This document shows, in pieces, positions 46,063 to 49,603 of a stretch of 64,000 nt of DNA. The position numbers and the translations under genes are program-made. Source of the stretch: Bisporella sp. PMI_857 (lineage: Eukaryota; Ascomycota; Leotiomycetes; Helotiales; Helotiaceae). The stretch spans positions 372,001-436,000 of the forward strand of contig JAJSPD010000006.1 of assembly GCA_021307315.1 (NCBI GenBank), read 5' to 3'. The notes beneath the pieces were generated by a model. It had not been told where the DNA came from. It searched no databases and saw nothing but the letters and a program-made list of their open reading frames with translations. The number at the start of each line of letters is the position of its first letter. Within the stretch, counting starts at the first letter, position 1.

Positions 46063-47229
46063 ATGTCTGGCAAACGTATGACTGCGAATCCATTAAACCT
46101 AGTCGCCATCGGCCAAATAAAGTTGTTGCCGAACAAGACTCTTCAGATTCAGAATCAAGCGATCAAGAAGTTACTCAGCCTACTAAGCCTCCACCAAAGG
46201 TCTCCTCTGCAGGAGGTATTACTAGTAATCTGAGCAAGGTCGATCTTAATGAGCGACGGAGGATTGCAGCTGAGAAGGAAAAGGCACGAATAGAAGAGGA
46301 GCGGGCTTTAAAGGCCAAGGCGGAAGAAGGCTTTGAAACCGCGAGTGAAGAGGAGAGTGAAGATGGCTCAGGCAGCGAAGGAGAGCAGCGAAGAGGAATC
46401 AAGCGAAGAAGAGGCTCCCAGGAGGTGATGTTACGGCCGACATTCATCAAGAAAGATAAGCGGAATAACCCCGCCGCTACGAAAGATACCAAAACAGACG
46501 AAGCATCAGCCGCAGCAGAGGAAGCAAGAAAGAAAGAACTTGCTAATGAAATTGTCGAGGAGCAGATTAAGAAAGATATTGCTGCGAGAGCGGCAGGGAA
46601 GAAGAATTGGATGACGACGAAGATGAGGACGAGGTTGATACCGATGATGATTTGAGCCCTGAGGCTACCGAAGCTGAGTACGCTGTGGAAACTAAGAGAG
46701 ATACGAAGGACTAAGAGGGAGAGAGAGCTTATCGAAGAACACGAGAAGGAGAAAGCTGAGGTGGAGCGGCGGAGAAATCTTACAGAGGAAGAGCGAAAGG
46801 CGGAGGACGATGAATATATTGCGCGCCAGAAAGAAGAGAAAGAAAGTCGAGGGAGGGCAGGGTACATGCAGAAGTATTACCATAAAGGCGCTTTCTTTAG
46901 AGATGAAGCAGAAGCTCAAGGACTGGATCGTAGAGATCTCATGGGAGCAACATATGCTGATGACGTTCAGAACCGGGAGCTGTTACCACAAGCATTGCAG
47001 ATGAGAGATATGACAAAGATAGGCAAGAAAGGTGCAACGAAGTACAAAGATCTCAGAAGCGAAGATACTGGACAGTGGGGTCAGTTTGATGACAGGAAAC
47101 CTGGAAAAGGAGATTTGGAGGATATAATCAGGATGATCGATTTAGGCCTGATCGAGATAGAGATCGAGAAGCTGCTGTGGAAGTGGAGCAAACAGCATGC
47201 CAGTGGCCAAGCGGCGAAGAGTTGGCTAA
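46063..47229 (+). CDS. MFAP1: MFAP1-family spliceosomal protein
   Basis: MFAP1 joins the spliceosomal B complex (with Prp38 in metazoans and fungi). ATG 46063 gives MSGKRMTANP; after a slip near 46100 the frame reads SRHRPNKVVAEQDSSDSESS. Then ERRRIAAEKEKARIEEERAL, an acidic region, MLRPTFIKKDKRN, and ELANEIVEEQIKKDIAARAA with KKNW. After slips near 46610 and 46700 follow VERRRNLTEEERKAEDDEYI, ARQKEEKESRGRAGYMQKYY, HKGAFFRDEAEAQGLDRRDL, NRELLPQALQMRDMTKIGKK and KYKDLRSEDTGQWGQFDD. After further slips near 47135 and 47185 the family ending (DDRFRPDRDRD ... ANSMPVAKRRVG) appears with stop at 47227-47229. Long charged helices are typical. Confidence 0.9.
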
Positions 47230-47435
47230 GCCAGTGTATATCATAAATCTAATATATACCAACATCTGATGTTCTTTCATTTCTAGAGGCCGGTGAAATT
47301 ACCATGGCCAAAAAAAAGGAATTCAAACAAAGTATTAAAACACCCCTAACCCTCCGTTCCCCACCCAAGAAAAAAGTCATAGACACATGCTCTTAAAGAG
47401 CATAGAGAAGAAGAACAAGAAAAAAAAGAGAGTAA
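47230..47435. other. 3' flank of MFAP1 and tRNA terminator region
   Basis: Short AT-rich spacer. The A8 run at 47420-47427 serves, on the minus strand, as a T-run terminator for the tRNA-like locus. Confidence 0.5.
47420..47427 (-). terminator. Pol III T-run terminator of the tRNA-like locus
   Basis: Eight T on the minus strand about 9 bases after the predicted discriminator base, as expected for RNA polymerase III termination. Confidence 0.6.
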
Positions 47436-47588
47436 TACTCGACGCGGGGCTCGAACCCGCAGCCTATAGATGAATTCACATGAAATTTTCTTTCATAGTG
47501 TAGAAGTCTTGGTGAAAGTCAGTTCTACATCCTGAGAGTGATTGGCAGTTTAACAAACCTTGCGCGCTACCTATCAGCTTCTCGGAGT
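47436..47588 (-). tRNA. tRNA-like locus, Arg(UCU)-like, with two inserts (possible pseudogene)
   Basis: The minus strand has a perfect T-arm (GCGGG TTCGAGC CCCGC, a good B box), a 3' acceptor strand GTCGAGT, a D-arm-like AGCTGATAGGTAGCGC and an anticodon-loop-like ACTTCTA. The total span is 153 nt. Removing a 51-nt block at 47508-47558 (GTTTGT ... AACTGAC ... CCAAG) and a 29-nt block at 47472-47500, just 3' of loop position 37, leaves 73 nt, a normal tRNA length, with anticodon UCU. The 29-nt block contains an ATGAAA/TTTCAT hairpin and sits where classical tRNA introns do. However, the acceptor stem (about 5 of 7 pairs), D-stem and anticodon stem (3 of 5) are poorly paired, so this may be a degenerate copy or mis-parsed. 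The shared AGGCT variable region links it to the Arg gene 1 kb away. Confidence 0.45.
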
Positions 47589-48436
47589 AAATATTCCAGA
47601 TCAAGCAAATTTTAGAAGTTGAAAGTATGTTATAAGATTATAAACAAAGAGTAAATAGTGCTTTTGGGGTACAAAGAACAAACCTCTAAGATGAATCAAA
47701 ATATAGATTTAATATTAATTACATTGCTGACGTTTGATACAGTATTATACTGTTTAAAGAAACTAAACCTTTACATACTAGGCGGAATATATCTTGTAAG
47801 ACAAATCGCTTACCTTTTTGCAAACAAAACAAGTATCATGCGTAAAGTAAGCACTTTAAGCAGTTAGTTACATAGGAGAGAGTCTAGCTGAATCAAATGT
47901 TTAGATTTTTGCGGATAATTTTAGTTCCCACTTTTTGTATAGGTGCTGCTGAAGCTGGAGGCTGCACTAACCATCCAACCATCCAAATATTAATTCCTCC
48001 AACAGCAGCAGCCTCCAAATCTGGATAGAGCCTCCATAGCTTTGATATCCAGTATTAGCAGCCTAATTAGCAAGACTTTTAATAAGAAAAGTTTTGGAAG
48101 TTGGGTATGCTTTGTATTTGATACTGTTCAGTCAAAGTTTCACTTGCACACAGTATGAAGCGATTGTTAGTTATGTAATGTTAAGCTAGACAATGGTAAA
48201 AACAGCGTATCCTGTTGGGCTTAATAGTTCAGAATAGTGAAGTATCTTAGCAGGCTTTATGGAATGTTTAATCCTCAAAGGTTTGTGTCTTAAAGCACTG
48301 TATGGTTGAGCAATATGGGAGGGAAAGTGGTAGGCTAAAAAAAACAAATAAAGGATAAAAGAGAAAAAAATAATTTTATGCTTAAAAGTTTACCTAAGAC
48401 AAACAAAATAAAGAGGGGTAGCAAAAAGAGATATAT
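47589..48436. other. AT-rich spacer between the two tRNA loci
   Basis: About 0.85 kb without a supported gene. It contains a partly palindromic segment: a 10-bp arm at 47956-47965 (TGGAGGCTGC) and its complement at 48008-48017. Confidence 0.5.
48423..48427 (-). terminator. Pol III T5 terminator of tRNA-Arg
   Basis: Five T on the minus strand 9 bases beyond the discriminator base of the tRNA-Arg gene. Confidence 0.65.
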
Positions 48437-48560
48437 CACTCCAAGAGGGCTCGAACCCTCAGCCTCGAGATTAGAAGTCTCGCGCGCCTAGGAAAGACGT
48501 TAGGAATAATTGAAAGAGGTGGTGGTTTAGTATAACTTACTACCATTGCGCCATTGGAGC
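48437..48560 (-). tRNA. tRNA-Arg(UCU) with a spliceosomal-like intron in the D-arm
   Basis: Minus strand. The 5' half (48541-48560) is GCTCCAA, TG, D-stem GCGC, D-loop AATGGTA. The 3' half (48437-48487) is D-stem GCGC, G26, anticodon stem/loop CGAGA-CTTCTAA-TCTCG (anticodon TCT), variable AGGCT, T-stem GAGGG, loop, CCCTC, acceptor TTGGAGT, discriminator G. Acceptor pairing is complete with a terminal G-U. Joined, the halves make 71 nt. The T-loop is one base short (6 instead of 7), most simply a missing C as in the neighbouring genes. Between positions 21 and 22 lies the 53-nt insert 48488-48540. The A box (TGGCGCAATGG) and B box are both outside the insert, so Pol III recognition should survive. 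Confidence 0.85.
48488..48540 (-). other. 53-nt GT-AG intron-like insert in tRNA-Arg D-arm
   Basis: On the minus strand the insert begins GTAAGTTATACTAAACC and ends ATTCCTAACGTCTTTCCTAG: perfect 5' splice site, CTAAC branch site 9 bases before the terminal AG-containing acceptor tract, and a pyrimidine stretch. Length and signals equal those of mRNA introns elsewhere in this window (44-60 nt). Excision between GGTA and GCGC restores the usual GGTAGCGC of fungal tRNAs. This is not the classical 37/38 site cut by tRNA endonuclease. Confidence 0.8.
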
Positions 48561-49603
48561 AGATCTACTTATTTTGCTAAATGGAAAATTATCCAAATAT
48601 ATATTAGTAACATGGATTGTGCCGCATCTCGCCTTCGCTTAAATGCTTGTTGACCAAACGATTGCTTAACAGGTGCTATAATACGTTTTCAACCCAGTGA
48701 CTCATTTGGTAGAAAAAAAAATAGGTAAGGAGGTAAGCAAGTTCTTATACAGCAGATGGCAATGGTTGGTTCAGTGGATGAACACTAAAGGGGCATTTGC
48801 GCGCCTCGCCTCATAATGATACCACGGGCCTGTGCCTAAGTTCTGGAAGTTTATATACCAAAGCATATAATACATTGCTAAATCCGAGACTAAGCTAGAA
48901 ATGTTTTTCACATATTTTGCAAGGACTAAGATTAATATGGGATTCGCCTAGAACTCTGTAATTAAGTAACTTTTATCTCCACCTGCGGGTGTTTGAAGTT
49001 ATAGTAAAATATCAGCCCACCTTACAGCTAGTAGTCAAGGTAATAACAATAAAGCTTTGTAGCTCGTAAGTTAACTCACGATCAAAGCTCTAGTATAAGT
49101 GGCAAAAGAAACTGTTTAGATACTAACCGCAATCTTTGTGAATTCTGCTATTTGTGAAGTACTGTATTACGCATGCAAGCCACTTGCATCAAAGGTTTCA
49201 CAGATTGAGAATAAGCTTATAAGTAAGCATCCGCAGAGCATAGCATAAAAATTAACGTTGTTTACTGCATACCTGATCTGTGCTATACTGCATCTGCATC
49301 GTCTGATATCTCTTAAGTTTTCCGATGTGAGAAACGTGTTTAGGAAAAAGTCTGGTGTATATTGAATGCAATCACAAGCTTCAATGTTACAAAATGAAAA
49401 AAAGAGGCGTCATGAGAATTAACATAAGACAAGGTTAGTTCAGTAACAATTGGTCAACGAGCTTGAGTATATCAAACAGGCGTAGAAGCATCCCTTGGAG
49501 CATGAACATCGTGAATCAATTATTTACCTTTTACAACATTTCGCATCAAGCCAACATCTGGGACTCAAGTACAGTGTCATTACTCGCCATCATCATGAAT
49601 TAT
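48561..49603. other. AT-rich intergenic
   Basis: About 1 kb without recognisable genes; minor T-rich and A-rich runs only. Confidence 0.5.

Follow-up and report, generated by a model that had tools for sequence, protein, structure and literature searches.

Introns with spliceosomal signals in nuclear tRNA genes of the fungus Bisporella sp. PMI_857

Introduction

The usual substrate of the spliceosome is RNA made by Pol II. Spliceosomal introns also occur in the rRNA genes of Pezizomycotina, and an mRNA intron in 18S rDNA is referred to in PMC11782384, which for nuclear tRNA genes names archaeal-type introns. According to Yoshihisa 2014 (PMC4090602), eukaryotic tRNA genes with short insertions in the D or T arm, mostly one gene among many synonymous ones, are supposed to be pseudogenes, with exceptions in a red alga and in nucleomorphs. 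The main text of that paper contains no word with the stem "spliceosom-". Soma 2014 (PMC3978253) deals with BHB-type disrupted tRNA genes in algae.

Here, we describe a tRNA-Arg(UCU) gene with a GT-AG insert in its D-arm, located in a 64,000-nt stretch of the Bisporella sp. PMI_857 genome (C241:372001-436000, henceforth the window), and compare it with other small RNA genes of the same genome. An earlier note on this DNA, made from the sequence alone, had known of no described spliceosomal intron in a nuclear tRNA gene. Our search of open-access full text likewise found none.

Results

A tRNA-Arg(UCU) gene divided by a GT-AG insert

The earlier note had placed a 53-nt insert between positions 21 and 22 of the gene, beginning with GTAAGT, carrying TCCTAAC near its 3′ end and finishing with CCTAG. 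Upon re-reading of the sequence, the coordinates, strand and letters all proved correct, the finish lying 12 nt after the branch-like A (Table 1). That both Pol III boxes lie outside the insert was borne out as well, with the A box, assigned by its consensus, wholly in exon 1 and the B box in exon 2. When the letters of the insert were shuffled 200,000 times, GT..AG ends arose 97 times, and such ends together with a strong 5′ site and CTAAC not once. The same counts were 898 and 2 for the insert of a tRNA-Pro(UGG) gene (L093) and 546 and 0 for that of a tRNA-Lys gene, and a chance origin of the signals is rejected by these numbers.

Table 1. Features of the tRNA-Arg(UCU) region in window coordinates, and other tRNA loci with GT-AG inserts (positions in our own tRNA numbering)
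Feature	Location	Strand	Details
tRNA-Arg(UCU) gene, split	48437-48560	-	read from sequence
Exon 1 of tRNA-Arg(UCU), 20 nt	48541..48560	-	acceptor 5′ strand, D-stem 5′ strand, D-loop to A21; read from sequence, fold by ARAGORN after splicing
A box (TGGCGCAATGG)	within 48541..48560	-	whole box in exon 1
GT-AG intron, 53 nt, position 21/22	48488..48540	-	GTAAGT..CCTAAC..CCTAG; tRNA restored on excision
Branch-point-like CTAAC	48499..48503	-	12 nt from second A to intron end
Exon 2 of tRNA-Arg(UCU), 51 nt	48437..48487	-	D-stem 3′ strand, anticodon arm CTTCTAA (UCU), variable loop, T arm, acceptor 3′ strand, G73
B box (GGTTCGAGCCC)	within 48437..48487	-	T arm of exon 2
T5 run	48423..48427	-	about 10 nt past the gene end; possible Pol III terminator
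TATA-like run (AATATATATTT)	48595..48605	-	about 35-45 nt upstream of the gene; putative function
Second tRNA-Arg(UCU)-like element	47436..47588	-	about 1 kb downstream of tRNA-Arg(UCU); 5′ half degenerate
T8 run by second UCU element	47420-47427	-	
L093 tRNA-Pro(UGG)	insert at 46/47		GTGAGT..TACTAAC..AAAG; Rfam match
L095 (C213) tRNA-Lys(UUU)	insert at 9/10		GTAAGA..CTAAC..CCAG; Rfam match
L108 second tRNA-Pro(UGG)	insert at 46/47		CTAAC pattern
L110 (C2) tRNA-Ala(CGC)	insert at 21/22		CTAAC pattern
L126 (C217) tRNA-Ala(CGC)	insert at 20/21		plus 37/38 intron; CTAAC pattern
L114 tRNA-Thr(UGU)	insert at 29/30		plus 37/38 intron; CTAAC pattern
L109 (C35:46400-47000, minus strand) tRNA-His(GUG)	inserts at 19/20 and 64/65		both GT-AG, plus ordinary intron at 37/38; CTAAC pattern

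As a check, it had been proposed to run tRNA models on the gene with and without its insert, and the outcome agrees with the claim that excision restores the tRNA: ARAGORN called tRNA-Arg(tct) on the spliced gene and made no call on the unspliced one. In an Rfam scan of the window, the gene was the sole match above threshold (30.1 bits), with the 5′ half of the alignment wrongly placed inside the insert, and ARAGORN in its intron-free mode found no tRNA gene in the 64,000 nt. In our own scoring, which takes in the acceptor, D and anticodon arms and the conserved positions within them, the gene reached 20/20.

The T arm is a real worry for a spliceosomal reading. One ARAGORN run gave it a full 5-bp stem with a loop of 6 nt (TTCGAG) where 7 nt are expected, a second run gave a 7-nt loop on an imperfect stem, and neither yielded a 7-nt loop together with a full T-stem. 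Both forms are unusual or rare in cytosolic tRNAs. The 6-nt loop could stem from decay or from a sequencing error, and it speaks for the view that the Arg gene is no longer in use, a dead copy hit by intron-like sequence. Against this stand the 20/20 score of the other three arms and the intact splice signals, and we regard a dead copy, on all the evidence given here and below, as unlikely.

Copies of the gene and the need for a UCU tRNA

The gene is present twice, on contigs C241 and C263, and a genome search with it returned only itself and this identical copy. C263 and the window are 100% identical across all 37,475 overlapping bases compared. The identical stretch, on two contigs of about 1.2 Mb, suggests a duplicated contig or two haplotypes, and the two copies were therefore counted as one locus. 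Another stretch (L100) lies outside the span of the window.

AGA accounts for 35 of the 2403 codons in the 11 exons counted. By the wobble rules, decoding of AGA calls for a UCU tRNA, and since AGA is in use, such a tRNA is needed. The earlier note had raised the objection that an intact UCU gene might exist elsewhere, and we searched the genome with three patterns, which would miss a T arm that departs from them. Patterns for the UCU anticodon loop and T arm hit the two copies of the Arg gene and 28 other places (1 + 27), all 28 of which were without tRNA pairing in a structure check. A wider pattern that allows for a 37/38 intron gave 15 places. The 13 that were checked (all but C255 and C259) comprise the Arg gene twice, a second UCU element twice, places within Ala(CGC) and Ser(UGA) genes, and seven without a full T-stem. 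Thus, aside from C255 and C259, the three-pattern search found no intact second tRNA-Arg(UCU) gene, only the identical Arg copies and one degenerate element in two copies. That no intact UCU gene was found by these patterns while AGA is in use is a further point against a dead copy.

The second UCU element, about 1 kb away, is a point in favour of a dead copy. Its 3′ half is intact (CTTCTA, a 37/38-type insert, AGGCT, GCGGGTTCGAGCCCCGC and GTCGAGTA), and upstream of the anticodon there is a possible GTTTGT..CTGAC..CCAAG insert. Allowing for up to two GT-AG introns, the best score for its 5′ half was 17, equal to the best of 30 shuffled sequences, and no upstream acceptor strand was found for it. 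A gene for MFAP1, which acts in pre-mRNA processing, adjoins the two tRNA elements (46656-47246, plus strand), which is probably a coincidence.

GT-AG inserts in seven further tRNA loci

The genome of 55.6 Mb was surveyed in two ways. An Rfam tRNA search, in which 63 of 2170 first-look candidates were scored so that the census is partial, gave 49 matches that were run through ARAGORN; a tRNA was found in 48 of the 49 loci, and two (L093 and L095) have GT-AG inserts at non-canonical places. A pattern of CTAAC plus B box gave 478 matches, and our results rest on 100 of them (contigs C1 to C57): most were judged by eye, the regions of 18 were extracted (one of which, L121, missed its match), 13 were inspected as sequence and 29 were stem-tested. 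A narrower GG..CC form of the pattern gave 31 matches, all listed.

Besides tRNA-Arg(UCU), seven tRNA loci with GT-AG inserts of 52-56 nt were found in this manner: two each for Pro(UGG) and Ala(CGC), and one each for Lys(UUU), Thr(UGU) and His(GUG), with a pair of inserts in the His gene (Table 1). None of the inserts lies at 37/38; their positions are 9/10, 19/20, 20/21, 21/22, 29/30, 46/47 and 64/65. The D-loop introns of the two Ala(CGC) genes are one nucleotide apart. In the partial census, no uninterrupted copy was found for Arg(UCU), Pro(UGG), Ala(CGC) or Thr(UGU). For His there are sister genes free of GT-AG inserts, L083 and probably also L088, whose sole introns are at 37/38.

All eight precursor sequences, including that of Arg, are present letter for letter in their source contigs. 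ARAGORN found a tRNA in all eight spliced forms, with the intended anticodon in six, and on the unspliced forms it found none in three and proposed other intron-bearing forms in five. The Thr gene is named from the anticodon in its loop; ARAGORN placed the 37/38 intron otherwise and called Ala(tgc). The His gene was called Thr(tgt) in a form that retained the 37/38 intron, and with only its first intron removed and the 64/65 insert kept, it gave no tRNA.

Other candidates were set aside. In four tRNA-Asp loci (L127-L130) we see only 37/38 introns, their CTAAC being part of the D-loop. A tRNA-Gly(UCC) gene (L096, C230) has a 27-nt insert that is not GT-AG and resembles a partial repeat of its own D-arm (TGGTCTAATGGT).

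Shared signals of the tRNA and U6 introns

The nine introns in the eight tRNA loci start with GT, end with AG 10-12 nt past the A of the last YTAAY, and measure 52-56 nt. Their 5′ sites are GTAAGT (three), GTGAGT and GTATGT (two each), GTAAGA (one) and, in the first His intron, a poor GTTGGT; the branch site is CTAAC in eight and a weak TTAAT in the second His intron. Five of the loci (L108, L109, L110, L114 and L126) were found by a search that requires CTAAC, so that in them CTAAC is no independent evidence, whereas GT, AG, spacing and restoration of the tRNA are. T runs longer than 3 nt are absent from eight of the nine, among them the Arg intron, and the Lys intron has a T5.

The earlier note had pointed to intron-bearing U6 genes of other fungi as a precedent, and the precedent now comes from the same genome. 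A U6 search, with 47 of 3744 first-look candidates scored, found five genes, three of which (L016 on C124, L017 on C1 and L018 on C213) have GT-AG introns of the same anatomy. These introns measure 53-58 nt, end 11-13 nt after the A and lie at one position, CAATTT|GAAACGATACAGAG, with unlike interiors; the other two genes (L014 and L015) are uninterrupted and diverged. GT..AG ends fall on the boundary that restores the host in all nine tRNA introns and all three U6 introns, where for the six inserts tested this was chosen among two to three equivalent boundaries each. All 12 have a branch-like A at a distance of 10-13 nt from the 3′ end. No introns were seen in 5S genes: in a search that scored 47 of 2336 candidates, each of the ten matches spans the full model.

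Other intron classes do not fit. Among 66 pairwise comparisons of the interiors of the 12 small-RNA introns, the top z was 2.9, with no likeness beyond the signals. A recently copied mobile or introner family is ruled out by these unlike interiors and by the single-gene match in the genome search. A group I or II intron is rejected as well, since Rfam gave no match to a ribozyme core in the window, in 47200-48800 or in the 13 loci scanned, and the inserts are only 52-56 nt long.

For comparison with introns of mRNA, seven junctions were tried in two protein genes of the window. Clear introns were obtained for glycerol kinase (52 nt, GTAAAC..GCTAAC..ATAG, 3′ part GCTAACTCTCCATAG) and bestrophin (47 nt, GTAAGT..AAAG, with an AAAG end that is also found in both Pro introns). 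An 86-nt intron (GTAAGG..GCTAATAG..TAATAG) is likely, and the GT..AG solutions of the remaining four junctions (49-117 nt) are doubtful. Only two of the seven junctions thus gave a clear intron resembling the tRNA introns, and the comparison rests on few cases. The best named homologues of window proteins are from Leotiomycetes (bestrophin), a Dothideomycete (HAM1) and a lichen fungus (glycerol kinase), all of them Pezizomycotina.

Precise removal would yield proper tRNAs

The tRNA-Lys(UUU) gene L095, minus its insert, equals the uninterrupted tRNA-Lys(UUU) gene L068 (C232) in 74 of 74 nt. At the level of sequence, the two genes represent the states before and after the gain or loss of an intron. 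The intact sister is a point for a dead copy; L095 may be a failing copy, because of this sister, the T5 in its intron and an A box split by the insert at 9/10.

Between the two Pro(UGG) genes, the exons are identical (45/45 and 27/27, 72/72 in total), and the introns, aligned over 59 columns, agree in 38, most closely around the splice signals. The flanks show no relation on the 5′ side (z 0.5) and a weak likeness on the 3′ side (z 3.5). That the exons are identical at two loci despite diverged introns and unrelated upstream flanks argues against dead copies, as do nine precise GT-AG inserts, which are not expected from random decay. Gene conversion could also have kept the Pro exons equal, but it would have needed to spare the introns. 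Together, the Lys copy and the Pro pair show, as far as sequence can, that precise removal gives a proper tRNA.

Could it be the tRNA splicing endonuclease (the Sen complex) that removes the inserts, on the model of red algae and nucleomorphs? Two matches to its catalytic domain (PF01974) are present in the genome, which fit with the 37/38 introns found there. Non-canonical tRNA introns are known from Cyanidioschyzon and nucleomorphs (PMC4090602, PMC3978253), many Guillardia nucleomorph introns are without a defined BHB (PMC3978253), and the enzyme of eukaryotes is believed to work by measuring distance (PMC4090602); if it does, a missing BHB does not by itself decide against Sen. The earlier note had remarked that the tRNA endonuclease cuts by structure and not by GT-AG signals. 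A BHB with a 4-bp central helix between two 3-nt bulges was absent from the Arg, Pro (L093) and Lys inserts, which at no equivalent boundary reach more than three of four central pairs or form a full flanking helix, and the predicted fold of the Arg precursor, as we read it, contains none. On these grounds a BHB intron was rejected for the three inserts tested. Furthermore, in the 48 scanned tRNA genes, some of which have 37/38 introns, GT-AG and CTAAC signals occur only in Pro(UGG) and in one chance match inside Arg(ACG). We know of no GT-AG or CTAAC rule that belongs to Sen, and we consider removal by this enzyme most improbable.

Another route would have the tRNA parts lie within a longer Pol II transcript that is spliced like an mRNA, with the tRNA then cut out. 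The usual substrate of the spliceosome speaks for it, as do the T5 and the split A box of the Lys gene. The Arg gene, in contrast, has both Pol III boxes intact, a T5 just after its end and a TATA-like run upstream, and U6, which is normally a Pol III gene, has the same kind of intron in this genome. We therefore hold the Pol II route to be very unlikely.

Discussion

By sequence, we have shown the anatomy of these introns, their recurrence in eight loci, the restoration of the tRNAs and the same intron type in U6. We think it quite likely that the spliceosome removes GT-AG introns from tRNA precursors in this fungus, and that the nuclear tRNA-Arg(UCU) gene is divided by a spliceosomal intron of the U2 type. 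Pol III transcription and spliceosomal removal are what we infer from these features. The earlier note had suggested that a tRNA precursor made by Pol III may here be processed by the spliceosome, an idea that gains support from seven more tRNA loci and three U6 genes with the same anatomy.

According to this model, Pol III would transcribe the Arg gene from its intact A and B boxes, and the spliceosome would recognise GUAAGU, CCUAAC and CUAG and join exons 1 and 2, after which RNase P, RNase Z and CCA addition would complete the tRNA. Several other tRNAs of Bisporella sp. PMI_857 would take the same route, and the His, Thr and one Ala precursor, with their extra 37/38 intron, would depend on the tRNA endonuclease in addition to the spliceosome. 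A point against spliceosomal removal is that exons in the interrupted tRNA genes are as short as 9-20 nt. It seems likely that the spliceosome is a regular enzyme of tRNA maturation in this organism: several tRNA families would exist only or mainly with mRNA-type introns, the single proper Arg(UCU) gene would depend on it, and some precursors would pass through the spliceosome and Sen in succession.

If this is true, a single RNA brings together mRNA splicing and the making of tRNA, which are usually taught as distinct pathways, each with enzymes of its own. It would also mean that spliceosomal introns can invade genes that have no reading frame and tiny exons, and that the spliceosome acts on small structured RNAs beyond U6 and U3. 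Gene finders miss such tRNA genes, as seen in the window with ARAGORN in its intron-free mode and with the half-misplaced Rfam alignment. Furthermore, the interrupted and uninterrupted tRNA-Lys copies in one genome offer a natural test of intron gain.

How do these introns relate to known systems? Canonical nuclear tRNA introns, which are removed by Sen, likewise interrupt tRNA genes, and by our reading the His, Thr and one of the Ala genes (L109, L114 and L126) carry both kinds. The canonical ones differ in that they usually lie at 37/38, are without a clear local splice-site motif and are handled by protein enzymes, as described in PMC4090602. The introns of archaea, Cyanidioschyzon and nucleomorphs are alike in occupying several positions, including the D and T arms, with up to three per gene (PMC4090602). 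However, these are mostly read by way of a BHB, whereas the three inserts tested here have none and spliceosomal signals are present. Spliceosomal introns in ascomycete rRNA resemble ours in having hosts other than mRNA genes, but that host is a Pol I rRNA gene and not a tRNA gene. The mRNA-type introns of fungal U6 snRNA and U3 snoRNA, like the tRNA inserts, are short GT-AG introns in genes for small structured RNAs. They are spliced by the spliceosome, and in both length and branch spacing the three U6 introns described above agree with those of the tRNA genes; what differs is the host, here a tRNA gene. Most likely, these inserts represent a new class of host for a known kind of intron, one that works like the introns of U6 and U3.
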